The notes under the pieces are model-generated. The model was given only the letters and a program-made list of their open reading frames with translations. It did not search any database and was not told where the DNA came from. A stretch of DNA of 41,716 nucleotides from Rhodospirillaceae bacterium. GTDB taxonomy: Bacteria > Pseudomonadota > Alphaproteobacteria > Rhodospirillales > JABHCV01. A program made the translations under genes and the position numbers. Where the stretch lies: contig JABMOQ010000005.1 of NCBI GenBank assembly GCA_013204045.1, forward strand, positions 1-41,716. The letters are read 5' to 3'. Numbering within the stretch: position 1 is the stretch's first letter; every line of letters starts with the position of its first letter. Below, piece after piece: positions 16,086-39,384 of the stretch.

Positions 16086-16127
16086 ACTCTAGAATCATCG
16101 GGCAGGAGCGAGGTTGATCGGGGTCAA
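16086..16127 (-). promoter_or_regulatory. FNR/FixK-type promoter of ubiTUV
   Basis: On the minus strand TTGAC-CCCG-ATCAA (16114-16127) matches the TTGAY-N4-RTCAA site of FNR/FixK/Dnr regulators. A -10-like TAGAGT (16086-16091) starts 22 bases further on. That spacing puts the box near -41.5, the class II activator position. The predicted start is near 16079. Three boxes with the same layout occur at 23260, 24760 and 25759. Confidence 0.75.
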
Positions 16128-23259: not shown

Positions 23260-23300
23260 TTGACCCTTATCAATGCACTTGTTTCTCATGGGCCTAGAAT
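23260..23300 (+). promoter_or_regulatory. FNR/FixK-type promoter of the cytochrome cluster
   Basis: TTGAC-CCTT-ATCAA (23260-23273) followed after 21 bases by a good -10 hexamer TAGAAT (23295-23300). This is the class II FNR/FixK layout. The predicted start is near 23307, giving a leader of about 50 bases to the NapC-type gene at 23360. Confidence 0.75.
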
Positions 23301-23359
23301 GACACGAATATTATGTTAAATATGCGCGTACGCATCCTTCTCGTTCGGAGAACGAAGCC

Positions 23360-23926
23360 ATGATCAGGCGCTTGTGGAAACGGTTCTGGAGGCCGGCCAC
23401 AAAGTTTTCATTTGGATCAATTTTAATTGCTGGTGGCGTGGCGGGGCTTATCTTCTGGAGCGGCTTTTCCGTATTCCTGGAATATTCGAACACGCTCGAA
23501 TTTTGTACTTCGTGCCACGAAATGGATCAGCTGGTTTATCAGGAATACAAAAAAACCATCCACTACACCAACCGGACCGGAGTCCGCGTCATCTGCTCCG
23601 ACTGTCATGTGCCAAAAGCCTTGGGGCCTAAATTGCTGCGCAAGATCAAGGCCAGCAACGAACTCTATCACAAGATGCTGGGCTCGGTGAACACACTGGC
23701 AAAATTCGAGTCCAAACGCATGGAGTTGGCGCAAAACGTCTGGCGAACAATGGAGGCCAATGATTCCCTTGAATGCCGCAACTGCCACACCTATGAGGCC
23801 ATGGATTTCCATAAGCAGACGGAGTTTGCCCGGGAAACCATGCAACTGGCCATGGAGGAAAACATGACCTGCATCGACTGTCACAAGGGTATTGCCCACA
23901 AGTTGCCTGACGAATTCGAGGAGTAG
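23360..23926 (+). CDS. NapC/NirT family tetraheme cytochrome c
   Basis: A 188-residue membrane-anchored tetraheme cytochrome of the NapC/NirT/NrfH family, which takes electrons from quinol and hands them to periplasmic reductases. One N-terminal transmembrane helix spans about residues 18-40. Four CXXCH motifs start at Cys49, 79, 139 and 171; the first reads CTSCHEM with the Met that ligates heme 1 in NrfH/NapC. GGAG lies upstream of the ATG. It is the first gene after an FNR-type box and is followed one base after its stop by the diheme cytochrome. No Nap, Nir, Nrf or Tor reductase is adjacent, so the acceptor is not evident. Confidence 0.93.
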   Translation: MIRRLWKRFWRPATKFSFGSILIAGGVAGLIFWSGFSVFLEYSNTLEFCTSCHEMDQLVYQEYKKTIHYTNRTGVRVICSDCHVPKALGPKLLRKIKASNELYHKMLGSVNTLAKFESKRMELAQNVWRTMEANDSLECRNCHTYEAMDFHKQTEFARETMQLAMEENMTCIDCHKGIAHKLPDEFEE

Positions 23927-23927
23927 G

Positions 23928-24710
23928 ATGATGAAATATAAGGTTTGCGGGCGGTTAGGAAAAAACCTGAAGGCGGGGTGGCTGGCCTTGGTCCTTTCCG
24001 TTTTGCCGGCCTTCGTTGTTGCCGACGAGCCGCCGGAAGATCCGGCCCACGCCCATGATCCGGCCAACGTCTGGTTTATCGGGCGTGGCGGCCAGCTCTA
24101 CGATAGCTGGATGGCGACGACCATGGCCGAAAAACCGTGGGGCAATCATCCGGCCTATCCGGCCATCGGCAACAAGCGGGGATATCCCACATGGCGTTGC
24201 AAGGAATGCCATGGCTGGGATTACAAGGGCAAGGACGGTGCCTATCGCTATGGTGCCCACCGAACCGACATTAAAGGAGTCAGGGGTGTTTTGGGTATGG
24301 AGCCTGCGGAAATACAGAAAATAATCATGAACGAAACCCATGCCTTCACCGAGGACCAGTTGCCCCATTCGGCCGTGGAGATGCTGTCGTATTTTCTCAG
24401 CTTCGAACAGATAGATATGGACAAGTATATAGACCGGCGTACCAAAAAGGCGTTGGGTGACTTCGACGAGGGGGCCCACGCCTACCAGTCTGTTTGTGCG
24501 CTCTGTCACGGCTATGACGGTAAGAAAATCAATTTTGCTTCACAGAAATACCCGTCCTACGTGGGCAGTGTGTGTGCCCGAAACCCTTGGCAGGCCCTGC
24601 ACAAGATCAGGTATGGGCAACCCGGTACGGGGATGGTGGCGCTGAGCAACGTGGATTTGGGTATCGTCGTTGATATCCTGTCCTACTGCCAGACTTTGCC
24701 GGAAGAATAG
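23928..24710 (+). CDS. Exported diheme cytochrome c
   Basis: A 260-residue periplasmic cytochrome with a signal peptide (LALVLSVLPAFVVA, cleavage near residue 32) and two CXXCH motifs: Cys91 in WRCKECHGWDYKG and Cys190 in SVCALCHGYDG. Each lies in a separate class I-like domain; the first is preceded by GGQLYDSW and HPAYP, a pattern I associate with a group of uncharacterised diheme cytochromes. I start it at ATG 23928 (or 23931), right after AGGAG-TAGG. It is cotranscribed with the NapC-type gene, making it a candidate electron partner of that protein. The function is not known. Confidence 0.88.
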   Translation: MMKYKVCGRLGKNLKAGWLALVLSVLPAFVVADEPPEDPAHAHDPANVWFIGRGGQLYDSWMATTMAEKPWGNHPAYPAIGNKRGYPTWRCKECHGWDYKGKDGAYRYGAHRTDIKGVRGVLGMEPAEIQKIIMNETHAFTEDQLPHSAVEMLSYFLSFEQIDMDKYIDRRTKKALGDFDEGAHAYQSVCALCHGYDGKKINFASQKYPSYVGSVCARNPWQALHKIRYGQPGTGMVALSNVDLGIVVDILSYCQTLPEE

Positions 24711-24759
24711 GAAATGAGGGTTGAAATGGCTGAAATAGCCGGGGAGTGAGGCCTGAACA

Positions 24760-24801
24760 TTGATCGTAGTCAATGCAGGGTTAAGACGGAAATGCTTTAT
24801 T
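24760..24801 (+). promoter_or_regulatory. FNR/FixK-type promoter upstream of the monoheme cytochrome
   Basis: TTGAT-CGTA-GTCAA (24760-24773) with a weak -10-like TTTATT (24796-24801) 22 bases downstream. It lies in the 145-base gap before the gene at 24856. The box fits the TTGAY-N4-RTCAA pattern of the other three sites; the -10 match is the poorest of the four. Confidence 0.6.
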
Positions 24802-24855
24802 TTACCAACCTTCCGATGAGGGTAAATGAGGCCTATACAGAAATAGGAGGTCGCG

Positions 24856-25257
24856 ATGCTTGATCTCAATATTTTCCACCGTTCAAAAATACTGGCGAGT
24901 GCCGTCGCCGTCGCCATGCTGGCGGCTTTTCCGGCCGCTACGGCGCGGGCCGACCACGCCACTTTCCTGGGTGAAATCCTGCCGATCTTTCAAAAACATT
25001 GCACCGAATGCCATATCCCGGGTCAGCAGGGTTACGAGGATAGTGGTTTGGACATGCGCACCTACGAAGGCGTGATGAAGGGCACCAAGCACGGCCCCAT
25101 CGTTGTTCCAGGCGACGGGTTCTCAAGCAATATAATGGTCCTGATCGAAGGCCGGGCGGCCCCCGAATTGAAAATGCCACATGGCCGAAAGGAACTGAAC
25201 AAGTGGGAGAAATTGATGATCCGGCGCTGGATCAACCGTGGAGCCCTGAACAACTAG
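24856..25257 (+). CDS. Monoheme c-type cytochrome, planctomycete-type domain
   Basis: A 133-residue exported protein with a signal peptide ending TARA and one CXXCH (Cys49, HCTECHIPG). The layout EILPIFQKHCTECH, then SGLDMRTYEGVMKG, GPIVVPGDGFSSN and a final MPHGRKELNKWEKLMIRRWI, is that of the planctomycete cytochrome C-like domain, often found alone or attached to larger enzymes. An excellent AGGAGG lies five bases before the ATG. It has its own FNR-type box upstream and is 17 bases before the methylglyoxal-synthase-like gene. The distal heme ligand is not obvious, possibly the Met in LKMPHG. Confidence 0.85.
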   Translation: MLDLNIFHRSKILASAVAVAMLAAFPAATARADHATFLGEILPIFQKHCTECHIPGQQGYEDSGLDMRTYEGVMKGTKHGPIVVPGDGFSSNIMVLIEGRAAPELKMPHGRKELNKWEKLMIRRWINRGALNN

Positions 25258-25274
25258 CGATGGAGCCCCTATAA

Positions 25275-25736
25275 ATGACCGCCGCCAAATCCCTGATCCT
25301 GATCGCCCACCAACGGATGGCGGAACCGTTGGTCAAGCTCATCAAGAGCCGCCGAGACATATTTGAATCCTACCGCCTGCTATCCACCAATGAGACCGGA
25401 AAGGTGATAGAGGATGAATTGGGCTTGGAGGTATCGCACCTGCATTCAATCCAGCAGGCCGGCGAGATGCATTTGTGTGGCCTGATTTGCGCCACCGGCG
25501 TGATCCGCGCCGTGTTCTTCCTGCGCGATCCCATGGCGTCCACCGACGAGCCTGACATTACGCCATTCTATCGGGCATGCGATCTTAACAAGGTGCCGTT
25601 GGCGACCAATGTGGTGGGCGCGGCGGCGCTGTTGCCGTGGCTGGGGCGCAAGGGCGAAGAAGCTCAGGACGGGGATGGCGAAGAATCCTCAAGCATTTCC
25701 ATCCAGACGCCGGCCAATCAATCGACCCGCCATTGA
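25275..25736 (+). CDS. Methylglyoxal-synthase-like domain protein with altered active site
   Basis: A 153-residue cytosolic protein with the MGS-like fold: LILIAHQRMAEPLVKLIK at the start, the LSTNETGKVIEDELG phosphate-loop region and ATNVVGAAALLP near the end. Compared with E. coli MgsA, the catalytic Asp71 position reads Glu64, His98 reads Asp91, and Asp20 reads Gln13; His19 (His12 here) and Asp101 (Asp94 here) remain. Methylglyoxal synthesis is therefore doubtful. The tail after residue 130 is acidic and disordered. A cytosolic enzyme between cytochrome genes is odd; it may sense or bind a small phosphorylated ligand. The function is unknown. Confidence 0.82.
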   Translation: MTAAKSLILIAHQRMAEPLVKLIKSRRDIFESYRLLSTNETGKVIEDELGLEVSHLHSIQQAGEMHLCGLICATGVIRAVFFLRDPMASTDEPDITPFYRACDLNKVPLATNVVGAAALLPWLGRKGEEAQDGDGEESSSISIQTPANQSTRH

Positions 25737-25758
25737 ATGCGTACAAACACTCTAATAA

Positions 25759-25799
25759 TTGATGTTGATCAATGTGTTAATGGGCCGGATTGATATGAT
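25759..25799 (+). promoter_or_regulatory. FNR/FixK-type promoter of the cytochrome c-NrfCD genes
   Basis: A perfect palindromic box TTGAT-GTTG-ATCAA (25759-25772) followed after 21 bases by TATGAT (25794-25799), a 5/6 match to the -10 consensus. This is the best site of the four. The predicted start is near 25806, with a leader of about 43 bases to the cytochrome c gene at 25849. Confidence 0.8.
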
Positions 25800-25848
25800 C
25801 GCAGCCAATCAAAGAACCTTAAAAATTGTTTGTCACAGGAGCATTCCG

Positions 25849-26214
25849 ATGAAAACGAAAATGATGTTGGCGTTATCAACGCTTTTGATGGCGGGCATGG
25901 TATCCGGTCCGGCGCTGGCCGATGGCGACGGCGCCGAGGTTTTCAAGAAAAGATGCAAGGTCTGTCATTCGATCGAGGCCGGAAAGCACAAGATGGGACC
26001 TTCCCTGGCTGGCATCATGGGCCGCAAGGCGGGGACAACGGACTTCGCCAAATATATAGGCATTAAAGATTTCGGCATCGTTTGGGACGCCGAAAATATG
26101 GATAAATTTCTCGCCGACCCAAAGAAGTTTGTCGGTGCCAAAACCATGGCCTACAAGCTCAAAAAAGAGGAAGACCGGGCCGCTGTCATCGCCTACCTGC
26201 AAACTCTTAAATAA
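25849..26214 (+). CDS. Class I cytochrome c (c2/c550 type)
   Basis: A 121-residue exported monoheme cytochrome with a signal peptide ending PALA, heme motif CKVCH at residues 36-40, GPSLAGIMGRKAG after it, and the axial Met100 in GAKTMAY. It is a typical soluble electron carrier. The ATG at 25849 has AGGAG upstream; the longer open frame runs through the promoter and is not used. It directly follows an FNR-type promoter and is 57 bases before the tetraheme gene. It may shuttle electrons between the NrfCD-linked module or bc1 and a terminal enzyme; that is inference from position. Confidence 0.92.
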   Translation: MKTKMMLALSTLLMAGMVSGPALADGDGAEVFKKRCKVCHSIEAGKHKMGPSLAGIMGRKAGTTDFAKYIGIKDFGIVWDAENMDKFLADPKKFVGAKTMAYKLKKEEDRAAVIAYLQTLK

Positions 26215-26271
26215 AGTCTCCGGCCGGGCGTTTGCCATAGGGCACCGGCCATCAATCGGAAGAAGGCGGTC

Positions 26272-26751
26272 ATGTCAAATCCTTCCCCCAAGGCACATCT
26301 TGTTCGTTTGGCGGCGGTTCTGGTCGGTGTCCTGGTTGTTTTCCTGATCATTAAACAAATGGTCGTTCCGGACAGCTGGAACTACGAGGAATGGTACCGT
26401 GAGGGCGCCTTAGCGCTTAACGCGAGTGAGCCGCTGGCTTATGGCGGCAACGAATCCTGTGCCGCCTGCCATCAGGAAACCAACGACGAGTTGGCCGAAT
26501 TCAAGCACAAGGCGCTGTCGTGCGAATCCTGCCATGGGGCTCTTGCCGATCACGTTACCGATGGCGTTAAAACCGCCGCCGCCCAGGTCGACGACGAATC
26601 CACATGGCAATGCCTGAACTGCCACGAGGCGCGGGTGAGCAAGCCGGAAGGCTTCCCGCAATTCGACAAGGTGGCGATCAAGGAACACACGGAAATTGAA
26701 GAAGGCATGCTCTGCCTGGCCTGTCATACGCCTCACGACCCAACGCCTTAG
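26272..26751 (+). CDS. Membrane-anchored tetraheme cytochrome c
   Basis: A 159-residue protein with one N-terminal transmembrane helix (about 10-30) and four CXXCH motifs starting at Cys63, 84, 114 and 148 (CAACH, CESCH, CLNCH, CLACH). It is shorter than NapC and lacks its heme-1 Met arrangement, being closer to NrfB/ActA-like multiheme relays. It precedes an NrfC-like and an NrfD-like gene, so it is probably the cytochrome subunit of that quinone-linked complex, with the role that NrfB has in NrfBCD. No assigned terminal acceptor. GAAGG lies before the ATG. Confidence 0.88.
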   Translation: MSNPSPKAHLVRLAAVLVGVLVVFLIIKQMVVPDSWNYEEWYREGALALNASEPLAYGGNESCAACHQETNDELAEFKHKALSCESCHGALADHVTDGVKTAAAQVDDESTWQCLNCHEARVSKPEGFPQFDKVAIKEHTEIEEGMLCLACHTPHDPTP

Positions 26752-26772
26752 GATGATGCAAGGGTTCCAGAA

Positions 26773-27576
26773 ATGAAGAACATGAAGAAAATAGTCGAAA
26801 TGGAAATGCCTTCGATCCCTGATTCCCGCCGGGAATTTCTGATCCGCCTGTTGGAGGGAACGGCGACGGCGACCGTGTTGATGGTGTTCGGGCCCGGTGC
26901 CTCGGCCCACGGACCGGAAACGGGTATCTCCGGAAGCCTAGAACCGGCTAAACATAACTATGCCTATATCATCGACATCAACAAATGCATCGGCTGTGGA
27001 AATTGCGTGCGCGCCTGCAAGCGCGAGAACAGCGTGCCGGCGGATTATTTCCGGACCTGGGTAGAGCGCTATGTGGTGCGGGCCGATGGTGTCTATGTGG
27101 ATTCACCGAACGGCGCGCTGGAGGGCTTCGAGAAGCTCAATAAGAAATTCCGCGACAACATACAATTAAGCCGTACGGTCCCGAAAATGTGCAACCACTG
27201 CCATAATCCGCCGTGTGTGCAGGTATGTCCCGTCGGTGCCACATTTAAATCGCCGGAAGGTTTCGTTCTGGTCGATCACGATTATTGCCTGGGCTGCGCC
27301 TACTGCGTCCAGGCCTGTCCTTATGCGGCGCGCTTCATCAACCCGGTGAAACATAAATCCGACAAGTGCACTTGGTGCTATCACCGGGTGAAAAAGGGCA
27401 AGCTGCCGGCTTGCGTCACCGTGTGCCCACAAAAGGCCCGCCTGTTTGGTGATCTCAACGATGTTGAGAGTGAAGTCTCAAAAATATTTGAGAAAGATCA
27501 TTGGATGGTGTTGAAGCCCGAGATGCACACGGATCCGACCTGCTTTTATATAGGCCTGCCGAGGGAGGTGGTGTGA
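26773..27576 (+). CDS. NrfC/HybA-like periplasmic ferredoxin with four FeS clusters
   Basis: A 267-residue exported iron-sulfur protein. The N-terminus has a twin-arginine signal (DSRREFLIRLLEG, then a hydrophobic run, ASAHG). Four complete cysteine sets follow: 72/75/78/82, 140/143/148/152, 172/175/178/182 and 199/202/214/218, so four [4Fe-4S] clusters are expected. This is the NrfC/DmsB/PsrB type of electron-transfer subunit. It sits between the tetraheme gene and the NrfD gene and overlaps the latter's start by one base. No molybdopterin catalytic subunit accompanies it, unlike DMSO or polysulfide reductases. Confidence 0.92.
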   Translation: MKNMKKIVEMEMPSIPDSRREFLIRLLEGTATATVLMVFGPGASAHGPETGISGSLEPAKHNYAYIIDINKCIGCGNCVRACKRENSVPADYFRTWVERYVVRADGVYVDSPNGALEGFEKLNKKFRDNIQLSRTVPKMCNHCHNPPCVQVCPVGATFKSPEGFVLVDHDYCLGCAYCVQACPYAARFINPVKHKSDKCTWCYHRVKKGKLPACVTVCPQKARLFGDLNDVESEVSKIFEKDHWMVLKPEMHTDPTCFYIGLPREVV

Positions 27577-28778
27577 TGGAAACCTTGGGACTGCCCGGCG
27601 GCGCACTGGTCAACTACATTTTCCCCAACAATGCCCATGTGGTCTGGTCGATCATGATCGTCCTTTATCCCTATATCACCGGATTGGTGGCCGGGGCCTT
27701 CGTGGTTTCGTCCATGTACCACGTGTTCGGCGTCAAGGAATTCAAGCCGATTGCCAACTTCGCCCTGATTGCGGCGTTCAGCTTCGGCCTGTTTGCCGCC
27801 GTGCCCCTGCTATTTCATCTGGGCCAGCCGCAGCGCGCCTATGAAATATATACGACACCACACACGACCTCGGCCATGAGCATCTTCGGCTACGTTTATT
27901 CCAGCTATCTGGTTCTGCTGATGATCGAGATATGGATCATTTATCGCCGGGTGTTCATCGAGAAAGCCAATGAAGCGACCGGGGTTATGGCCATATTCTG
28001 GCGTGTGCTGTGTCTTGACATTACCACCTACAATCCGGAATCGGCTCAATTCGACAAGAAAGTTGCCAAGTTTCTGGCCGGCATCGGCATTCCCTGGGCC
28101 TGCTTGCTGCACGGGTATGTCGGCTTCGTGTTCGGATCGGTAAAGGCGGTCGCCTGGTGGGCGACGGCGTTGCAGCCGTTTATCTTTTTATCATCGGCGA
28201 TCGTCAGCGGCATGGCCATGTTGTTCGTCATGTACAGCTTCATCATGTGGCGGCGTGGCGGGCACTATGATTATGTTCTGGTCAAGAAATTCATGATCTC
28301 GCTATGGATGGCGTTCATCCTGGACTATTCGCTTGAGGTGCTGGAAGTCACCTTTGTCAGCTATGAGCAGGGGGCCCATTGGGCGGTTATCAAGCCGCTG
28401 CTTTTAGGCCCCTTGTATGAGTCCTACGTGCTTGGCCAGATGGGGCTCCTGTCCATAGGGCCGCTGCTGGTGCTTGGCATCGTCTCGCTGCTCGATATCA
28501 GGGGCAAGGCGCTGCTCTATCTTGCCAATCTGGGCAGCCTGATGCTGGTCTTCCAGGTTCTGGTCATGCGCTTCAACGTGGTCGTCGGCGGTCAGTTGAT
28601 TTCAAAATCGGAACGCGGTTTCGTCGATTACGAGTTTGAATTCTTCTCCAAGGAAGGATTGCTGACGGCGATCATCATTTTTGTCGCCCCCTTCGTTACC
28701 TATTACGTGATCAGCCGGTTCATCCCGATCTTCGAGGGAAAAAGCATGGATACGGAACCGAAAAGGGGCATCCTTTAA
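27576..28778 (+). CDS. NrfD-like integral membrane quinone-interacting subunit
   Basis: A 400-residue polytopic membrane protein of the NrfD/PsrC family with about eight to ten helices, which exchanges electrons with the quinone pool. Recognisable parts are VVSSMYHVFGVKEFKPIANF, LFHLGQPQRAYEIY and GIPWACLLHGYVGFVFGSVK. ATG 27576 has GGGAGG upstream and overlaps the stop of the NrfC-like gene. Together with the FeS protein and the tetraheme cytochrome it forms a quinone-to-periplasm (or reverse) module. Its TAA stop sits in the loop of a terminator hairpin shared with the convergent petC transcript. Confidence 0.9.
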   Translation: METLGLPGGALVNYIFPNNAHVVWSIMIVLYPYITGLVAGAFVVSSMYHVFGVKEFKPIANFALIAAFSFGLFAAVPLLFHLGQPQRAYEIYTTPHTTSAMSIFGYVYSSYLVLLMIEIWIIYRRVFIEKANEATGVMAIFWRVLCLDITTYNPESAQFDKKVAKFLAGIGIPWACLLHGYVGFVFGSVKAVAWWATALQPFIFLSSAIVSGMAMLFVMYSFIMWRRGGHYDYVLVKKFMISLWMAFILDYSLEVLEVTFVSYEQGAHWAVIKPLLLGPLYESYVLGQMGLLSIGPLLVLGIVSLLDIRGKALLYLANLGSLMLVFQVLVMRFNVVVGGQLISKSERGFVDYEFEFFSKEGLLTAIIIFVAPFVTYYVISRFIPIFEGKSMDTEPKRGIL

Positions 28779-28825: not shown

Positions 28826-29620
28826 TCAGTGCAGCTTCGCCCAAATCTTGCGTTTCAGGGCGTATAACATGCCGGTCCACACGAACAGGAACAGCAGCAC
28901 CTTGATGCCCAGCTTTTTACGGGCTTCCATTTCCGGGCTCGCCGCCCATGCCAGGAACGTGGTGATGTCCTTGGCGTGCTGCTCAAGCGTCGCCGGGGTG
29001 CCGTCTTCGTATTCGACGGTCTCGTCATACAGGGGCGGGCCCATGGCGATCTGGTGGCCGGGGAAAACTTCGTTGTAGTTCATGCCGTCGGCCAATTCGA
29101 AGCCCTCGGGCAGATCTTCTTTATAGCCGATCAGCAATCCATACAGATAATCCGGGCCGCCTTTGCGGGCCTTGACCATTAAGGAAAGATCGGGTGGAAA
29201 AGCGCCAGCGTTATTGGCGCGGGATGCCTGCTCGTTGGCATAGGGTGGAACGAAGCGGTCCGATGGGCGGGCCGGGCGCGAATACATGTCGCCTTCGTCG
29301 TTGGGGCCGTCGGTGACTTCGAACTCGGCGGCGAGTTCTTTGACCGCATCTTCGGTGAAGCCAATATCCTGAAGGTTGCGATAGGCAACCAGCTTGAGCG
29401 AATGGCAACTGGCGCAAACTTCGGAATAGATCTGAAATCCGCGCTTTAAGGCACCCCGGTCATAGGTTCCAAAGACACCGTTGAATGACCAGTCATGCTT
29501 CTGCAAGGCCGGGCCGCCTTCTGAGGCGAGGGCAACGGGTGCGGCAAGTCCGCTCAGCATGCCGGCGGCAGCGATGGCAATCAGGGTCTTTCGCGGGGTA
29601 AAGATGTTGGTCATCATCAT
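28826..29620 (-). CDS. petC: Cytochrome c1 of the bc1 complex
   Basis: A 264-residue cytochrome c1. It has a signal peptide (to about residue 33, ALAS), heme motif CASCH at residues 69-73 followed by [10 protein letters not shown], the axial Met region [12 protein letters not shown], and one C-terminal anchor helix ([19 protein letters not shown]). It passes electrons from the Rieske protein to soluble cytochrome c. Three ATGs in a row (29620, 29617, 29614) could start it; all overlap the petB stop. It is third in the petA-petB-petC operon. Confidence 0.96.
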
Positions 29621-30861
29621 CCGGCCCCTTTCGCGGTTTTTTCCTGTTCGGATTTCAATATGGCGGAACTGATGCTTTCCGGCGGCTCCAGCGGTTTTTC
29701 AAATTTGCAGATCATCGGGCAAACGATCAGGAAATGGGCGAAGTAATACGCCGTGGCGATGCGTCCGATGGTGACATAGGGTTCGACCGCAGCCTGTGCG
29801 CCGATGTAACCGAGAACCAGGCAATCGAAGACGAAGATCCAGAAAAACTGTCGGTAAATGGGCCGGAACTTGGCGCTACGCACCCGGCAGCGGTCCATCC
29901 ACGGCAACGCGAACAAGATACCGACGCCGGCGAACATGGCGATAACGCCGACCAGCTTGTTCTCGATCGAGCGCAAAATGGCGTAGAACGGCAGGAAGTA
30001 CCATTCGGGCACAATGTGCGGCGGTGTCACCAGTGGGTTGGCTTCGATATAGTTATCCGGCTCGCCGAACATGTCCGGCGCAAAGAACACGATTCCCATA
30101 TAAATAATCATGAACACGCCAAGCCCGAACATATCCTTGATGGTGTAATAGGGATGGAACGGAATGCTGTCGGCCGTGCTCTTCATATCGACGCCAAGCG
30201 GGTTGTTGGATTTATGCTGATGCAGGGCCCACATATGGACGATCACCAGCATATAGATGACGGCCGGCATCAGGTAATGGCCAACGAAAAAACGGGTCAG
30301 GGTGTTGTTGTCGATAACGAAACCACCCCACAGCCATGTAACGATGGTATCGCCAATAATCGGAACGGCGGAAAATAGGCTGGTGATGACGGTGGCGCCC
30401 CAATAGCTCATCTGGCCCCACGGCAGCACATAGCCCATGAACGCGGTGCCCATCATGGCCAGATAAATGCAGACGCCGATGATCCACAGAAGCTCGCGCG
30501 GTGCCTTGTAAGAGCCGTAATACAAGCCGCGGAACATGTGGATATAAACCAGGACGAAGAACATGGAGGCGCCGTTGGAATGCATGAACCTGAGCAGCCA
30601 GCCATAGTTAACGTCGCGCATCACGTGTTCAACGCTGGCAAAAGCGAATTCCGTATGCGGCGAATAATTGATGGCCAGGAAGAAGCCGGTGATGATCATG
30701 ATCATCAGCAGGATTCCGGCCAGCGAGCCGAAGTTCCACCAGTAATTCAGGTTCTTCGGTGTCGGGTAATCAATCAGGTTATCGCGCGCATAGGAAAATA
30801 CCGGTAGCCGGTAATCGACCCAGTCGAGAACGGGCAGGATGAGATTAGTTCCGAATTTCAT
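29617..30861 (-). CDS. petB: Cytochrome b of the bc1 complex
   Basis: Cytochrome b, 414 residues with eight predicted helices, holding hemes bL and bH and both quinone sites of the bc1 complex. The start [20 protein letters not shown], the [23 protein letters not shown] region, the Qo-site PEWY ([16 protein letters not shown]) and [21 protein letters not shown] are all as expected and only sampled here. ATG 30861 was chosen because GAGGGG is ten bases upstream and [14 protein letters not shown] fits the family; the frame is open to 30990 within petA. It follows petA by 14 bases. Confidence 0.97.
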
Positions 30862-30875
30862 TTTTTGTGTTCCCC

Positions 30876-31424
30876 TCAGCCTATCTTGATGGTTGTGTCG
30901 GTAAGGAACGAATAGGCGGGAACTTCCAGGTTGGCTGGTGCCGGTCCCTTGCGGATGCGTCCAGAGGTATCGTAGTGCGATCCGTGGCACGGGCAGAACC
31001 AGCCGCCAAATTCACCCTTCGGTTCGGTTTCACGCTGGCCAATGGGAATGCATCCCAGGTGCGTGCAGACCCCGACCATGATCAGCCATTCCGGCTTTTG
31101 GGTCCGATCGGCATCTGACTGGGGATCGGGTAAGTCGGCAAGCGAAACAGACACTGCTTGCTCAATCTCGTCGGCCGTGCGATGGCGGATGAACACCGGC
31201 CGGCCGCGCCAGACGACGGTAATGCTTTGGCCTTCCTCGATCGGCTCAATATCAACTTCCGTCGATGATAGCGCCAGCACATCGGCCGGCGGGTTGATGC
31301 TGTCGATGATCGGCCAGGTGGCGAGCGCCGCCCCGACGGCACCGACGGTGTAGGTGGCCAGTTGCAGAAAATCGCGGCGGTCTTCGCCGTCGTCTCCTGA
31401 ACCGTTTGCTGTTTCGTCACTCAT
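30876..31424 (-). CDS. petA: Rieske iron-sulfur subunit of the bc1 complex
   Basis: A 182-residue ubiquinol-cytochrome c reductase iron-sulfur subunit. A twin-arginine start ([18 protein letters not shown]) doubles as the membrane anchor. The [2Fe-2S] boxes are CTHLGC (Cys120, His122) and CPCHGSHYD (Cys144, His147), with Cys125 and Cys146 as the disulfide pair. It is the first gene of petABC, with GAGG upstream of its ATG. The upstream region is shared with trmL, which diverges from it. Confidence 0.97.
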
Positions 31425-31629: not shown

Positions 31630-32067
31630 ATGCGACTGGCCCTTTTCGAGCCCGATATCCCGCAAAATACTGGCACCCTGATGCGCACGGCGGCGTGTCT
31701 GGGTGTTTCTGTGGATATCATCGAGCCCTGCGGATTCGTCTTTTCCGATAAACAGTTACGCCGGGCCGGCATGGATTATCTGGACCTGGGGCAGGTTGAA
31801 CGGCACACCTCCTGGGAGGCTTTTCAAGCATCTCTGGAATCCCGGCTGGTATTGCTCTCGACCAGGGCCGCGGCGGTCTATACGGATTTTCGCTTTCAGG
31901 AGACCGATATACTGATGGTCGGGCGGGAGAGTGCCGGCGTGCCGGACCATGTGTTTGAAGCCACCGATGCCCAAGTTCGGGTGGCGATGAGCCCAGGTGC
32001 ACGCTCGTTGAACGTCGCCCAGGCTGCGGCCATGGTGCTCGGTGAGGCGCTCCGCCAGACTCTCTAA
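31630..32067 (+). CDS. trmL: tRNA (cytidine(34)-2'-O)-methyltransferase
   Basis: TrmL, 145 residues, a minimal SPOUT-class methyltransferase that 2'-O-methylates the wobble base of tRNA-Leu isoacceptors. Motifs are the start LALFEPDIPQNTGTLMRTAA, the central LMVGRESAGVPDHV and the C-terminal knot MSPGARSLNVAQAAAMVLGE. It is the only gene between the bc1 and the alternative complex III operons and points the opposite way to both. Its TAA stop overlaps the actF stop (4-base convergent overlap). I see no clear ribosome-binding site. Confidence 0.94.
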   Translation: MRLALFEPDIPQNTGTLMRTAACLGVSVDIIEPCGFVFSDKQLRRAGMDYLDLGQVERHTSWEAFQASLESRLVLLSTRAAAVYTDFRFQETDILMVGRESAGVPDHVFEATDAQVRVAMSPGARSLNVAQAAAMVLGEALRQTL

Positions 32068-33101
32068 GCTTTGCTGGTCAGCAGTTCGTAGCGGATAAGA
32101 ATCCAGCGCAGGGCTAAAATCGCCGTGGCGGCGATAATGCCGGTCACCAGCACGTCGAACATGGACGACAGCGGCGTGTGGAAAAAGCGGCTGGAAACGG
32201 AACCGGAAATCCAGATGTAGCGCTCCAGCCAGGTCCCGGCCAGGATAAACATGGCGACGATGACGATAATCGCCCGGGAATGCCGGCTGCGGGTGATGGC
32301 CAGGGTGCAGAACGGAATGATGAACTTGAATAGCAGGAATATGACGCCGGGAACGTAGTAGCCGCCCTCGATCATGCGGATATAGCGATCCATGTCGCCG
32401 GGCAGCCTGCCGTACCAGAACACCAGATACTGGGTGAAGTAGAAATACACCCACATGATGGTCATGCCGAGCATGAACTGGGCCATGTAGTTGTAGATTT
32501 TCCGGTCGAAGCGATCTTTCAGGCGGCCCGACTTGTCGAGCACGTAAAGCATCAGTGTGAAATACGCCAGATAACCGTGGAAATTGCTCTGGAAATGATA
32601 GGCCGCGTAACTGGCGCTGTGCCAGCCGGCTTCCAGGGTCATTTCGAAGTCCCAGGCGACCATGGTGCCATAGAGGACATAGACGAACGGGATCAGGATA
32701 GCGACCCTGTGAAAGCGCTCCAGGGCTTCCGGCGTGCCTTCAGTCTCGCTCAGGCGTTGGCGGCGCACGAAGATGCAGCACAGCAGGAAGGTAACGACGA
32801 AGCCGGCAATCTCGCGGATGACCAGGAAGGTATAGTTGTGCCAGCCGACAAGATGGACGCCCTCGTCATGGGCGCCGGCCAGCCACGGGAAGGTTGCCTC
32901 ACCGTTGGCCAGCAGAACCAGCAGCAACACGAAGGCAATGGGGAACAGAACCATGTTGGCGCACGCCAACCGGCGCACTTGAAAACGCCACTTGCCGCCG
33001 ACCAGATGCAGCAGGGATGAAAAGATCACGCCGCCCAGCGCCATATAAAGAACGATCAGGAAATTTGTCGTGATGATCGACCAGCTACCAAAATTTTCCA
33101 T
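32064..33101 (-). CDS. actF: Alternative complex III membrane subunit ActF
   Basis: A 345-residue polytopic membrane protein with about ten helices, NrfD-related, matching ActF of alternative complex III (quinol:electron-acceptor oxidoreductase). It starts MENFGSWSIITTNFLIVLYM, and includes HLVGWHNYTFLVIREIAGF and IYNYMAQFMLGMTIMWVYFY in its helices. It follows actE without a gap and is last in the act operon. ActF and ActC share the NrfD fold; ActF lacks the usual quinone-site residues in characterised complexes and is thought to be structural or ion-conducting. Confidence 0.88.
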   Translation of the reverse strand: MENFGSWSIITTNFLIVLYMALGGVIFSSLLHLVGGKWRFQVRRLACANMVLFPIAFVLLLVLLANGEATFPWLAGAHDEGVHLVGWHNYTFLVIREIAGFVVTFLLCCIFVRRQRLSETEGTPEALERFHRVAILIPFVYVLYGTMVAWDFEMTLEAGWHSASYAAYHFQSNFHGYLAYFTLMLYVLDKSGRLKDRFDRKIYNYMAQFMLGMTIMWVYFYFTQYLVFWYGRLPGDMDRYIRMIEGGYYVPGVIFLLFKFIIPFCTLAITRSRHSRAIIVIVAMFILAGTWLERYIWISGSVSSRFFHTPLSSMFDVLVTGIIAATAILALRWILIRYELLTSKA

Positions 33102-33653
33102 TTACTGTCCCTCTTGCGCCAGGCCGTTGCGAACATAATTAACGACGTGCCAGCGTTCTTCGACCGATAGATCGTTTGAGCCGCGCCCCTCTGTCGCTTC
33201 GGTAGGTACCCCGTAGGCAGGCATGATGGCGCTGCCGAAGGTAATGGTTCCGTAGATCCAGCCATCGGTCAGGTCGCCCATGAGGTCCTGATCGGTCAGG
33301 TCGATGGCGCCGATCAATTCGGCGACCGGGGTGTCGCCGTTGCCGGACGGCCCGTGGCAGGCGGCGCAATATATCTGGAACAGGGTGTGGCCCTTGGCAA
33401 TGGACGCGTCCGATACGGGGAACGGGTTTTTCAAATCCTCGGTTTCGTCGCGATCGGCTTGAATCGTCGGGAAACCGGTGACCGGCACCGAGCGTTTGGG
33501 AAACGGCTTCATAACCCCTTCCTGCGGCTTGAAGCTGGGCTGGTTCATCATGTCTGTCGACCACGGCCAGGCAAATGCTTCAGTCGGCATCAGCAGCACT
33601 GCGACGAGGGCAAAGGCCGAAACGGCGACCATATGGCGAAGGGTACGGCTCAT
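33102..33653 (-). CDS. actE: Alternative complex III monoheme cytochrome c subunit ActE
   Basis: A 183-residue exported monoheme cytochrome with a signal peptide (ending EAFA) and CAACH at residues 96-100 (YCAACHGPSGNGD). The preceding KPFPKRSVPVTGF segment, matching the R-x-x-P-x-x-G-T stretch of ActE, and the late IMPAYG with the likely axial Met support the call. ActE passes electrons out of the complex to a cytochrome or oxidase. No lipobox is seen, unlike lipoprotein ActE of some species. ATG shares one base with the actD stop. Confidence 0.88.
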   Translation of the reverse strand: MSRTLRHMVAVSAFALVAVLLMPTEAFAWPWSTDMMNQPSFKPQEGVMKPFPKRSVPVTGFPTIQADRDETEDLKNPFPVSDASIAKGHTLFQIYCAACHGPSGNGDTPVAELIGAIDLTDQDLMGDLTDGWIYGTITFGSAIMPAYGVPTEATEGRGSNDLSVEERWHVVNYVRNGLAQEGQ

Positions 33654-34180
33654 TACTCTTCCAGCTCCCTGTCCCTGATTTCCAGAACCTTGTGTTTTCT
33701 GAACAGGTCGCGAAGCGGATCGGCGTTGCCTTCTTCGACTTCGACGACGATTCCGACCTGATCGAGGTTGATTTTTTCATCGTCGAGGGCGGTGCGCTTG
33801 CGCATGAAGCGTCCACCAATAAGGAATCCGATAAAGGTTGATAGGACACCGAACAGGATCAGCATCTCGTAAATCAGCACCAGGTTGGATGTGATGGTGA
33901 TGACCGGCTTGCCGCCCTGTGGCTGGACCAGGAAGTTGGCTTGGGCGGCGGCCAGGAAGAAGGCACCGAAAATCAATCCGAACAGGGCACCTGAAAGCGC
34001 GAATTTGGGCACGTGCGACGAGCGTTCACCGAGAATTTCCTCGATCTCGGGATGCTCGATGGGCGATTTGATGGTGATATCGTCAACGGTGACGCCGGGA
34101 ACTTCGTATTGGCGAATACCGACAACCACCGCGATGGCTTGGTCGAAGTCGCTGAACAGGCCGAGGATGCGTTTTTTCAT
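33653..34180 (-). CDS. actD: Alternative complex III subunit ActD (DUF3341)
   Basis: A 175-residue protein with a cytoplasmic N-terminal domain (LGLFSDFDQAIAVVVGIRQ), two transmembrane helices (about 60-82 and 103-125) and a C-terminal domain ending LRDLFRKHKVLEIRD. This is the DUF3341 protein found only with alternative complex III, ActD. It binds no cofactor and has a structural role in the complex. It starts one base after actC. Confidence 0.9.
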   Translation of the reverse strand: MKKRILGLFSDFDQAIAVVVGIRQYEVPGVTVDDITIKSPIEHPEIEEILGERSSHVPKFALSGALFGLIFGAFFLAAAQANFLVQPQGGKPVITITSNLVLIYEMLILFGVLSTFIGFLIGGRFMRKRTALDDEKINLDQVGIVVEVEEGNADPLRDLFRKHKVLEIRDRELEE

Positions 34181-34181
34181 A

Positions 34182-35579
34182 TCACGATCCCTCCTGTCTC
34201 GAAGGCTTCATGACCCGCTCTTCGGCGTCATCAAAAACGACGCGGCGGCGGTGATAGACCATTTCCTTGACTTCGTACATGGACACCGACGGGAAAACCT
34301 TGACGAAAATAAGGAACAACAGGCCGAACCAGCCGATAGAGCCGATAACAATTCCCCACTCGACCCAGCTTGGCCACATGACGCCCCAGGTCCACGGATG
34401 GTAGGCCAGAGACAGGGTCGGCGCGACGATCATGTAGCGCTCCAGCCACATGCCGATATTCAGCAGGATGGAGACAATGAAGATCAGCGGCATGTTGTGG
34501 CGGATTTTCGGGACGATCAGCGCGAACGGCAAGATCATGCCGAAGAACAGCATGGTCAGGAAGAACGGCGAGTAGGGGCCAAAGAACTTGGCTAACAGAA
34601 CTTCCTTAGACGTCACGTCATGGCCGTACCAGACGGAGGCGAACTCGATCAGGTTCAGGTACGTCCACACCATGGCGATGGCGAAGGTCAGGCGGCAGGT
34701 TTTATCCAGAATCGGCAGGGTCATGTACTGTTCGAACTTAAAGAAATAACGCAGCAGCACGAACAGGCTGATGATCCCGGCGCAGCCCGAATACAGGGCA
34801 CCGGCGACAAAATAGGGCGGAAAGCTGGTGACGTGCCAGCCCGGCATAATCGCCATGGCGAAGTCGGCGGCGACGATGGAGTGCACGGAAACCGCCAGCG
34901 GAATCAGGAAACACGCCATCAGCAGATAGGTTTTGCGGAAATTCCGCCATTGCCGGTCATCGCCACGCCAGCCGACAGACATGAAGGTGTAAAGCTTCCG
35001 GCGCCAGCCCTTGACGTTGTCGCGGCAGATGGCAAGGTCGGGAATCATGCCGATATAAAGAAACAATACCGATGCGGTCAGGTAGGTGGTGATGGCAAAG
35101 GCATCCCAGACCAGCGGTGATCTGAAATTGGGCCAGATGCCGCGATCGCTCAGGTACGGCACAACCCAGTGCATGTTCCACACACGGCCCAGATGGATGA
35201 TCGGGAACAGCAGCGCCGTCAACAGCGAAAACGTGGTCATGGCCTCGGCAAACCGGTAGATCGGCTTGCGCCAGTCGGCGTGGAAAATATGCAGAATCGC
35301 CGACAGCAAGGTGCCCGAATGGCTCATGCCGATCCAGAACACGAAGGTGGAAATATAAAGATCCCACATGTGCGGATTGTTCAGGTTCGACGGCCCCATG
35401 CCGATGTCGTACTGATGAACTTCGGCATAGATGCCAATGCTAAGCAGCCCGACGCAGAAGGCGAGCGCCACCCAATAGCCCTTGCGCGGGTTTTGCATGG
35501 AACGCAGCACGTCGGCGTTGATTTTCGCCCAGGCGATCTTCTCGTCGATGTCTTTTGTGGCTGCTGTATGTTCGGCCAT
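34182..35579 (-). CDS. actC: Alternative complex III quinol-binding membrane subunit ActC
   Basis: A 465-residue NrfD/PsrC-like membrane protein with about ten helices, matching ActC, the subunit that binds menaquinol or ubiquinol next to the FeS clusters of ActB. Segments include ISTFVFWIGMSHSGTLLSAI, FRFAEAMTTFSLLTALLFPI-type helices, HVTSFPPYFVAGALYSGCAG and the last MYEVKEMVYHRRR. It starts four bases after actB2. It is longer than the lone NrfD-like protein at 27576, with which it should not be confused. Confidence 0.92.
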   Translation of the reverse strand: MAEHTAATKDIDEKIAWAKINADVLRSMQNPRKGYWVALAFCVGLLSIGIYAEVHQYDIGMGPSNLNNPHMWDLYISTFVFWIGMSHSGTLLSAILHIFHADWRKPIYRFAEAMTTFSLLTALLFPIIHLGRVWNMHWVVPYLSDRGIWPNFRSPLVWDAFAITTYLTASVLFLYIGMIPDLAICRDNVKGWRRKLYTFMSVGWRGDDRQWRNFRKTYLLMACFLIPLAVSVHSIVAADFAMAIMPGWHVTSFPPYFVAGALYSGCAGIISLFVLLRYFFKFEQYMTLPILDKTCRLTFAIAMVWTYLNLIEFASVWYGHDVTSKEVLLAKFFGPYSPFFLTMLFFGMILPFALIVPKIRHNMPLIFIVSILLNIGMWLERYMIVAPTLSLAYHPWTWGVMWPSWVEWGIVIGSIGWFGLLFLIFVKVFPSVSMYEVKEMVYHRRRVVFDDAEERVMKPSRQEGS

Positions 35580-35582
35580 CGA

Positions 35583-36434
35583 TTAAACCTCACGTACCCG
35601 TTCAAGATAAGTCACGGACGGTTCCGTATTAAGTTGCTCGTACAACCGGTAGCCGCGAAGCTCCGGATTTTTCTTGTCCTGCTTCGGCGTGCCCAGCTTG
35701 GTCTGATGTTTGTGCCAAAGCAGATGAACGTCACTTTCGTGGTCCATCAGGTCGCCAAACACGATCGCTGATGTCGGACAGGTCTGCTGGCATGCCGTCT
35801 TGATATCGCCGTCCTGGATTTTGCGGTCATCCATCTTGGCGTCGCTCTTGGCCGTCCTGATACGCTGCACACAGAACGTACATTTTTCCATGACGCCCTT
35901 GTCGCGAACCGTGATGTCAGGGTTGAGTTGCATATCCAGGGGCGACGGCCATGACGTTTCATAATAGGAATAGAAATTGAAATAACGCAGACGATAAGGG
36001 CAGTTGTTGGCGCAATAGCGCGACCCGATGCAGCGGTTGTAGATCTGCGCATTTAGGCCGTCCGGCGTGTGATAGGCGGCGGCAACCGGGCAAACCGGCT
36101 CGCAGGTTGCCGCGTTGCACTGCTGGCACATCATCGGCATAAACGAGGCGCCGTGCTCTTGCGTGTCCTTGCTCGCCTTGTCGCCCAAGTTAGGCTCGTC
36201 CCAATAGCGTTCGATCCGCATCCAGTGCATGGCCTGTCCGTGGGCGAAATAATCCTCGCCGACCACGGCCAGGTTGTTTTCCGCATAACACGCGACCGAG
36301 CACGCATTGCAGCCGGTGCATTTGTCCAGGTCGATAACCATGCCCCACATGTGTTCGTATTCGTGGAAGCCGCCATCCTCGATGCCCTTGCGGTAACGCG
36401 ACCAGTCCTGAATGAAGTTTCTGACGATGGACAT
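35583..36434 (-). CDS. Alternative complex III iron-sulfur protein ActB2 (split ActB C-part)
   Basis: A 283-residue ferredoxin-like protein equal to the C-terminal FeS half of ActB. Cysteine sets are 39/42/45/49, 103/106/111/115, 135/141/145 and 185/188/215/219. In the third set the second Cys is replaced by Ser138 (CIGSRYC), predicting one [3Fe-4S] and three [4Fe-4S] clusters, the composition known for ActB. In most characterised complexes this domain is fused to the molybdopterin-like half; here it is a separate gene, starting after a 3-base gap with its own GGGAG. There is no signal peptide, so export presumably depends on ActB1. Confidence 0.93.
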   Translation of the reverse strand: MSIVRNFIQDWSRYRKGIEDGGFHEYEHMWGMVIDLDKCTGCNACSVACYAENNLAVVGEDYFAHGQAMHWMRIERYWDEPNLGDKASKDTQEHGASFMPMMCQQCNAATCEPVCPVAAAYHTPDGLNAQIYNRCIGSRYCANNCPYRLRYFNFYSYYETSWPSPLDMQLNPDITVRDKGVMEKCTFCVQRIRTAKSDAKMDDRKIQDGDIKTACQQTCPTSAIVFGDLMDHESDVHLLWHKHQTKLGTPKQDKKNPELRGYRLYEQLNTEPSVTYLERVREV

Positions 36435-36437
36435 GGC

Positions 36438-38663: not shown

Positions 38664-38670
38664 TTTCTTC

Positions 38671-39384
38671 CTACTTGTGACACTTCTGGCAATCAAACGG
38701 GCCATCGTTGGCTTCGTGGCAGCGTGTGCAGAACCCCATGGTCAGGGACTTCTGTTTTTTTGCTACGGTCATCTTTTTAACGTCGCCATGGCACAGCGCA
38801 CACACCTCATCGACCCGCTCGACGCCCATATCCGGGTTGTCGAACAGGAACTTCTTCAAATGGCGTTCGTGGGTGAAACGCACATAGTCGGGCAGGTCAT
38901 GGACCTTTTTCCACGGCGGAGATTCGCCCTTTTCCCAGTATTCCGCCAGTTTTTGAATGCGTGGCTGGTCGGTGGCGATAACGCTGTGACAGCCCATGCA
39001 CTTGGACGTTGGCGGAATGCCCGCAACATCGCTGCGCCGGGCATAGGTGTGGCAGTAAAGGCAGTTGATCTTGTTGGTGTCGGCATGGACGTTATGGGGA
39101 AATTCGATCGGCTGCTCTACATCATCGCCGTCAAAGGGTTCGTCATTAATGGTCACGCCCGGGAACGGGCCAGGCTCTTTTTCCAGCCAGCCGGACCAGG
39201 CCGACGGCTCGCCCTGCTTCGGGCTGGTAAAGATTTCGTCCGCATAGGACGGGGCGGGAACGAGGGCTGCGGTAATGAAAACGCCGACAAGGAACATAAT
39301 CAGGCCGAGGAAGCGAACACCGGAACGCCTCCCCGGACGGGGCAAGCGAAAGAGTACGCGATTTGGCTCCAGATCACCGTTCAT
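38671..39384 (-). CDS. actA: Alternative complex III pentaheme cytochrome ActA
   Basis: A 237-residue membrane-anchored pentaheme cytochrome c, the first gene of the act operon. A transmembrane helix spans about residues 25-45. Five CXXCH motifs start at Cys108, 129, 195, 219 and 232, and three HxxH-type segments (FPHNVHA, FTHERH) offer distal His ligands. This layout matches ActA, which collects electrons from the ActB clusters on the periplasmic side. The ATG at 39384 has only a weak AGG upstream. The AT-rich region 39385-39781 must hold the operon promoter. Confidence 0.92.
   Translation of the reverse strand: MNGDLEPNRVLFRLPRPGRRSGVRFLGLIMFLVGVFITAALVPAPSYADEIFTSPKQGEPSAWSGWLEKEPGPFPGVTINDEPFDGDDVEQPIEFPHNVHADTNKINCLYCHTYARRSDVAGIPPTSKCMGCHSVIATDQPRIQKLAEYWEKGESPPWKKVHDLPDYVRFTHERHLKKFLFDNPDMGVERVDEVCALCHGDVKKMTVAKKQKSLTMGFCTRCHEANDGPFDCQKCHK

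Follow-up and report, generated by a model that had tools for sequence, protein, structure and literature searches.

A putative compact quinol:cytochrome c oxidoreductase of the NrfD family encoded beside bc1 and alternative complex III genes in a member of the Rhodospirillaceae

Introduction

What a run of cytochrome, iron-sulfur and NrfD-type genes serves when no reductase stands beside it is the question raised by a locus of Rhodospirillaceae bacterium (GenBank assembly GCA_013204045.1, contig JABMOQ010000005.1). The window, by which we mean the whole stretch of 41,716 nucleotides that was analysed, is contig C155 of a draft genome of 2.68 Mb and 98.7% completeness (G000; other G numbers are genomes of a sample of the order (n = 150), L numbers are loci and C numbers are contigs of G000). 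Eight consecutive rightward open reading frames (ORFs), g1 to g8, were recognised at 23360-28778 by ORF reading and family matches, which confirmed the families named in an initial annotation of a cytochrome-rich, quinone-linked module without a recognisable catalytic subunit. The extent given there, 23260-28778, is correct at its right end; the genes start at 23360, and an FNR/DNR-type box begins at 23260.

Most likely, the eight genes specify a small complex of the membrane through which a denitrifying bacterium exchanges electrons between its quinones and c-type cytochromes. We favour, with moderate confidence, the reading that the core trio g6-g7-g8 is a compact quinol:cytochrome c oxidoreductase resembling alternative complex III (ACIII) and Geobacter Cbc4 and belonging to a denitrification regulon, the direction of electron flow being a proposal. 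Parts of the following papers were drawn on: PMC8076601, PMC4911364, PMC3578206, PMC5276818, PMC10732223, PMC7327174, PMC7082337, PMC13059093, PMC11434368, PMC10989804, PMC13086519, PMC4013037, PMC11896075 and PMC6303296.

Conservation, fold and clades of the core trio

The trio loci were retrieved by similarity to g7, and the best 80 of 348 were kept. On the same strand and within 3.5 kb of g7, g6 was found in 80/80 loci and g8 in 78/80; no g8 ORF was recognised in the other two, L008 and L029, and the L008 contig stops 80 bases past g7. In the predicted model of the tetraheme g6, residues 6-31 form a single N-terminal helix; besides its four heme motifs, g6 has four histidines of axial type that are invariant in 36/36 aligned relatives. 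Four CXXCH motifs are present in 60 of 84 g6 relatives, three plus one CX3-4CH in 21, and the other 3 are larger fusions or variants. A Foldseek search with the g6 model gave no significant match (best E 0.16), and the g6 profile matched many multihemes, none of them decisive. In g7, which has an RR motif, 15 of the cluster cysteines are kept in 82-84 of the 84 aligned sequences and C82 in 53/84. The 12 CXXCH motifs and four clusters counted by the initial annotation were found again, the motifs in five cytochromes (Table 1) and the clusters as 16 cysteines of g7, and a 13th CXXCH match, in g7, is a piece of an iron-sulfur cluster motif. The NrfC and NrfD family models scored far under their cut-offs (160.3 of 377.6 and 40.2 of 347.6, respectively).

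The AlphaFold model of g8 (pLDDT 84.2, pTM 0.86) matched the ActC chains of four ACIII structures with Z 33.4-34.5 over 359-370 residues and PsrC with Z 20.1, and searches of the PDB by sequence, with g8 alone and as a profile, returned zero matches. Arginine R332 of g8 is invariant (37/37 aligned sequences) and pairs in a profile alignment with R381 of the window ActC, which pairs with R395 of ActC in 6f0k. The parts of the family review drawn on propose that an arginine of this R395 type is a proton gatekeeper conserved across the family, and for QrcD the source passage reports that a change of the gatekeeper arginine halved activity and that the residue was not essential for growth. Because this arginine is kept, and its change in QrcD halved activity, proton movement by g8, and thus by the core, is possible as a prediction.

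A tree of g7 plus g8 (FastTree, 82 tips, 641 columns, midpoint-rooted; L106, L008, L029 and the duplicates L109 and L112 left out) placed the window copy in a clade of 20 (support 0.867), defined after inspection of the tree, and this clade is sister to a clade of 28 (0.998) with a joint support of 1.0. Cytochromes of the g2, g3 or g5 type adjoin the core in 12/20 loci of the window's clade, several of which lie on short contigs, so that absent neighbours may be cut off. In L011 (5062-9293), g2-type diheme units are expanded in tandem, giving two proteins before the core, one of 911 aa with eight hemes and one of 478 aa with four.

An octaheme cytochrome resembling hydroxylamine oxidoreductase (HAO) lies within 4 kb of the trio in 26/80 loci (nearest NCBIfam model hydrazine dehydrogenase, far under cut-off), and penta- or dodecaheme cytochromes stand beside it in 17/80, nearly all archaeal. 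The window module might feed a specific distant multiheme reductase that turns nitrite into ammonium or does something similar, as these octaheme-linked relatives may do; for a locus of this kind in Thermosulfurimonas, the consulted part of one paper suggests a role in nitrite reduction. However, every octaheme locus falls within the separate clade of 28, and at E<=1e-5 no octaheme was found in 7/9 of the order's trio genomes, and the remaining two gave weak partial matches. The HAO-like octaheme was rejected as a distant partner because G000 has no match at E<=1e-5, and we consider this whole reading improbable. Regular adjacency to a known reductase, named in the initial annotation as an argument against a distinct system, was thus found by half, as a candidate octaheme reductase at those 26 loci and none in the window's clade of 20. 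A terminal reductase hidden in the cluster itself was rejected, none being present among the eight genes; no NrfA pentaheme is among g1-g8, and no genome-wide NrfA search was made.

Sulfide- or persulfide-type genes stand beside the core in 5/20 loci of the window's clade (one of them, L049, only similar-looking), and they raise the reverse direction, in which electrons, for instance of sulfide or a different lithotrophic donor, reach periplasmic cytochromes and are handed by the core to quinone; Qrc does so with electrons of cytochrome c3, and proton movement would cover the energetic cost. A flavoprotein resembling flavocytochrome c sulfide dehydrogenase (FCSD) and a diheme follow the core in L013 and L014; a type III sulfide:quinone oxidoreductase (SQR) precedes it in L061 (556 bits, cut-off 525), as does an ORF in L049 whose Pfam match is to CBS domains only; L005 has a metallo-beta-lactamase/rhodanese protein of the persulfide-dioxygenase type; and the FCSD genes of G000 lie behind an FNR/DNR-type box. 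The available text on QrcABCD describes electrogenic transfer from cytochrome to quinone. On the other hand, SQR itself reduces quinone and would need the forward direction, SQR and FCSD neighbours argue opposite ways, and FCSD-type genes (E<=1e-70) are not enriched, occurring in 4/9 trio genomes against 75/150 overall. Sulfide oxidation as the general role of the trio was rejected on the same count, and the reverse direction appears to us rather unlikely.

In L061 (8128-11805) and L049, labelled Thiobacillus, the type III SQR gene (L061, above cut-off) or the similar-looking ORF (L049) is directly upstream of the iron-sulfur and NrfD genes, and the tetraheme is fused to further heme domains with nine CXXCH altogether. 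A second NrfCD-type system of G000 is located on contig C7 (L106, 8250-14632) and comprises a molybdoenzyme, NrfD, an iron-sulfur protein with 43% identity to g7, a tetraheme and a heme protein of the ethylbenzene-dehydrogenase type.

The six-gene module and its neighbours

The trio was found at E<=1e-60 in 9/150 genomes of the order and in 3/6 sampled genomes of the window's family. L002 has the same order, g3-g4-g5-g6-g7-g8, while L001/L109 and L108 have g4-g8 with g3 at the far end, which upholds the idea that a cytochrome-rich, quinone-linked module is conserved with no reductase next to it; g3 adjoins the core in L001, L002, L007, L008, L108 and L110. L108 and L109, from genomes of the same family, share a block of act genes, a SpoU-type gene, bc1, the module, a major facilitator superfamily (MFS) gene, aldolase/short-chain dehydrogenase genes and an IF-2B-type gene, with actB (iron-sulfur part), actC, actE and actF identified in both. 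The bc1 genes occupy the same position in L108 and L109/L001, cytochrome b/c1 genes lie downstream in L007, and cytochrome oxidase genes lie upstream of the module in L006.

The full eight-gene order was found in the window genome only, g3 switches sides and g1-g2 comes and goes, as a loose collection of unrelated electron-carrier genes without joint function would lead one to expect. Such a collection is nevertheless very improbable, since the g3-g8 order recurs, g4-g8 with g3 stay together along with bc1 and act genes, and the box upstream of g5 is present in all four genomes that have g4 in the module.

The convergent bc1 and ACIII sets on the minus strand, which the initial annotation did not mention, are listed with the other features in Table 1. 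By signal peptide and spacing, the starts of g2, g5 and g8 are probably at 23928, 25849 and 27576. The molybdopterin-type gene and the iron-sulfur gene of the split ActB lie at 35583-38705.

Table 1. Coordinates of the genes and boxes in the window
Feature	Position	Strand	Evidence or remark
FNR/DNR-type box TTGAC-N4-ATCAA	23260..23273	+	86 bp upstream of g1; 43 bp upstream of divergent MFS gene
g1, NapC/NirT-family membrane tetraheme cytochrome	23360..23926	+	4 CXXCH; PF03264
g2, periplasmic diheme c-type cytochrome	23928..24710	+	2 CXXCH
FNR/DNR-type box TTGAT-N4-GTCAA	24760..24773	+	82 bp upstream of g3
g3, PSCyt1-type monoheme cytochrome	24856..25257	+	PSCyt1 match E 2.5e-8; 1 CXXCH
g4, methylglyoxal synthase (MGS)-like protein, subfamily without residues common to ordinary MGS	25275..25736	+	PF02142
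FNR/DNR-type box TTGAT-N4-ATCAA	25759..25772	+	76 bp upstream of likely g5 start
g5, soluble class I monoheme cytochrome c (c550-like)	25849..26214	+	1 CXXCH
g6, tetraheme cytochrome, N-terminal membrane helix	26272..26751	+	4 CXXCH and 4 more invariant His
g7, Tat-exported four-cluster [4Fe-4S] protein, PsrB/NrfC type	26773..27576	+	cluster cysteines and RR motif
g8, NrfD-family membrane subunit, ActC fold, R332 invariant	27576..28778	+	NrfD match E 6.7e-34; model
bc1 complex, convergent neighbour	28826..31424	-	Rieske 31424-30876, cytochrome b 30990-29617, cytochrome c1 29620-28826
ACIII genes actA-actF	32064..39384	-	actB split into molybdopterin-type gene and iron-sulfur gene

The MGS-like protein g4

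The match of g4 to PF02142 (25.8 bits, cut-off 24.1) indicates the MGS fold, and the NCBIfam methylglyoxal synthase model scored 82.5, just under its cut-off of 84. The motifs common to ordinary MGS of the order, HD..K, TGTTG, GGDQQ and QPHDVD, which presumably include the catalytic residues, are missing from g4 and its relatives, and an active methylglyoxal synthase was rejected for this loss of the typical residues. Close relatives of g4 (at least 55% identity) were found in 9/150 genomes, four in the module and five elsewhere. Four of these five belong to operons with PsrB-type iron-sulfur, NrfD/PsrC-like membrane, molybdopterin enzyme and monoheme genes, and the fifth was read in its flanks only. 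One of the molybdopterin enzymes was scanned, and the nearest model was PhsA at 367 bits (cut-off 694). By its lost motifs and the company of its relatives, g4 belongs to a separate subfamily that accompanies modules of the NrfCD/PsrBC type. Our guess is that it assists NrfCD-type modules from the cytoplasm, possibly with their maturation. The loci L211-L214 and L195-L199 combine g4 relatives with a PhsA-like molybdoenzyme, its iron-sulfur and NrfD-like subunits, an ATPase of the NUBPL/Mrp type and a small monoheme protein.

The g1-g2 pair

By family and neighbourhood, g1-g2 is a unit separate from the core and consists of a NapC/NirT tetraheme and a diheme. The PF03264 match of g1 is strong (235.2 bits, cut-off 24.1, E 5e-70), and NCBIfam napC_nirT reached 265.6, under its cut-off of 310.6. 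The pair is absent from the module of both same-family genomes that carry the module. Adjacency counts for g1, d1 and FccB are lower bounds, the entries used being 55 for d1, 70 or 49 for g1 and 64 for FccB. Among the best 20 g1 matches in the 150 genomes, at least 15/20 had a g2 match within 3 kb and at least 4/20 a PF02239 match, and the best relatives of g1 are in nirS operons of G005, a genome of the window's family (70-71%), and G082. The nirS-type operons of these two genomes contain a cd1-type gene, a g1-like gene, another diheme and a g2-like gene, in that order, and in G065, G008 and G015 g2-like genes without g1 adjoin cd1-type genes. PF02239 was matched in 34/56 genomes with a g2 match versus 27/94 without (Fisher p 1.5e-4, relatedness uncorrected). 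The g2 diheme family is not confined to nitrite reduction, because an FccB-type gene lies within 3 kb of at least 23/78 g2 loci.

The pair resembles NirT and NirB of nirSTB clusters, described in the parts drawn on as a tetraheme and a diheme cytochrome linked to nirS, in that a NapC/NirT-family tetraheme stands beside a diheme, g2 being like NirB in heme count. It differs in lying outside the nirS cluster, the cd1-type gene being on C65 and g1 on C155, and the operons of G005 and G082 insert their further diheme between the g1-like and g2-like genes. A single integrated eight-gene complex was rejected because g1-g2 move independently, and the initial idea of one system with two quinone contacts had to be given up, the pair being found elsewhere alone, in nirS operons or beside FccB.

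Regulation and a probable link to denitrification

The motif TTGAYNNNNRTCAA, which we take to be the FNR/DNR-type consensus, occurs 4 times in the window versus 0.18 expected, and 0/100 shuffles contained 4. Three of the boxes precede g1, g3 and g5 (Table 1), and the fourth, at 16114-16127, is upstream of no listed ORF. On contigs of G000 chosen for their respiratory genes, 11 boxes were counted in 170,865 bp against a shuffle mean of 0.32, one of them inside an ORF and some before no listed ORF; boxes lie upstream of the cd1-type gene (77 bp) and of the FCSD genes (58 bp). Contig C29 carries a Crp/FNR-type regulator and NnrS. From the boxes and the regulator genes we infer that the module is under low-oxygen or nitric oxide (NO)-responsive control. 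The PF02239 genes of G000 are two on C65, of which one, 546 aa long and with a heme motif, was taken as NirS. No clear nitrate reductase was found among the six PF00384 matches of G000, of which two were scanned and fell under every cut-off and the others were judged by eye or were ActB.

Two further operons of G000 were noted. FccAB-like genes with FCSD domains lie behind an FNR/DNR-type box on C106 (L157, 4430-6081). On C29 (L103, 4875-10410), a COX1-family gene (PF00115, scoring far under the cut-off of the cytochrome oxidase equivalog) shares an operon with SCO-type genes and with a cytochrome b that carries fused 4Fe-4S and FlpD/MvhD-type domains; this type of operon was also found in L156 (12867-18432) and partly in L154, and an identical or similar set lies near cd1-type nitrite reductase genes in G008 and G065. 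This operon is possibly an unusual NO reductase.

Proposed electron route and its weighing

In the favoured reading, which is also the most economical, g6, g7 and g8 would form one complex that oxidises quinol on the periplasmic side, at the contact of NrfD with the iron-sulfur protein. The electrons would pass through the four clusters of g7 to the membrane-anchored tetraheme g6 and on to the small c-type cytochromes g3 and g5, which may feed periplasmic enzymes that depend on cytochrome c, most likely the cd1-type nitrite reductase encoded on another contig as well as NO or oxygen reductases. A dedicated catalytic subunit would then be unnecessary. The g1-g2 pair may be a second and independent quinol-to-diheme branch of the NirT/NapC type placed ahead of the core in G000, and FNR/DNR-type control would place both the core and g1-g2 in a low-oxygen or denitrification regulon.

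The reading draws on sequence results, namely gene content, conservation of the core, its clade, the NrfD fold, the boxes and the cd1-type gene of G000. Several observations weigh against it. The adjoining bc1 and ACIII already carry electrons from quinol to cytochrome c, and a third such route is redundant unless its potential, direction or conditions differ. Tetrahemes with bis-histidine ligation tend to low potential, which suits other partners. The boxes were found in 5/10 scanned loci of the window's clade and in none of L003, L007, L008, L110 and L111, and in other loci of that clade sulfide-oxidation genes, not nir genes, adjoin the core. In favour of the reading, PF02239 was matched at E<=1e-60 in 8/9 trio genomes versus 61/150 overall (Fisher p 0.003, relatedness uncorrected), but this is not 8/9 for nirS because the family also matches NirF/NirN-type genes, and in G113 and G144 the matches are only in NirF-sized frames of 380-421 aa.

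A bolder version, which we put forward tentatively as a minority prospect, is that the core represents a distinct clade of proton-translocating quinol:cytochrome c oxidoreductases of Pseudomonadota, a third complex III analogue beside bc1 and ACIII, switched by FNR/DNR-type regulators for denitrification or micro-oxic respiration, with an MGS-fold pseudoenzyme as a recurring accessory of NrfCD-type modules. If the favoured reading is true, one chromosomal block of a marine-type relative of the Rhodospirillaceae would hold three ways to pass electrons from quinol to cytochrome c and would be a natural system for asking why bacteria maintain more than one, and the MGS-like partner would offer a new handle on the building or control of NrfCD-type complexes.

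Comparison with known systems

NrfABCD and MccACD share with the window a pair of the NrfC/NrfD type and differ in their reductases, as no NrfA or MccA is in the window. The initial annotation had supposed that NrfCD always comes with a reductase; the consulted part of a family review states that NrfCD-type dimers may function by themselves together with soluble proteins of the periplasm, and the ACIII chain leads to cytochrome c. The lack of a catalytic subunit is not anomalous, since neither ACIII nor Cbc4 has a dedicated reductase, and if the present reading is true, the idea that an NrfCD pair needs its own reductase nearby is to be corrected.

TDIS_0606-0609 of Thermosulfurimonas dismutans, in the published description as far as it was available, also has NrfD, an iron-sulfur protein and a membrane cytochrome c, and L077 is a trio in that genus; an HAO-like multiheme is present there, which the window's clade is without. 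The menaquinone:cytochrome c oxidoreductases of Methanoperedenaceae are likewise described, in the source passages, with NrfD, a 4Fe-4S protein and multihemes, and the loci named Methanoperedens among L042-L079 carry the trio; these are archaeal, have penta- and dodecaheme flanks and form a separate clade. ACIII (ActABCDEF) has in common with the module a multiheme, an iron-sulfur protein and an NrfD subunit, the ActC fold with its conserved arginine, and the output to cytochrome c. In contrast, g1-g8 are without the molybdopterin-type ActB domain, ActD, ActE and the second NrfD (ActF), and the true ACIII set is a separate cluster next door.

In composition and order, Geobacter Cbc4 (CbcSTU), of which no named locus was among those retrieved with g7, matches the three-gene core: in the parts of the literature drawn on, a tetraheme, a 4Fe-4S protein and a membrane subunit are encoded in that order without a dedicated reductase, and the complex is called a putative menaquinol:ferricytochrome c oxidoreductase, with CbcU also named a b-type cytochrome. 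Together with the parts of other published loci, this overturns the earlier view that no system of such content was known. The Geobacter setting, in the same passages, is metal reduction and interspecies electron transfer, whereas the window module has small monoheme cytochromes, the MGS-like gene, FNR/DNR-type boxes and bc1/ACIII neighbours. The consulted parts of the literature contain no description of this cluster in Rhodospirillales, with an MGS-like gene or beside bc1 and ACIII. The core is already known elsewhere, and the window version, its neighbours and g4 look new. If our reading is true, Cbc4-type complexes reach beyond the metal reducers and methane-oxidising archaea in which they are known, to denitrifying and sulfur-oxidising Pseudomonadota.

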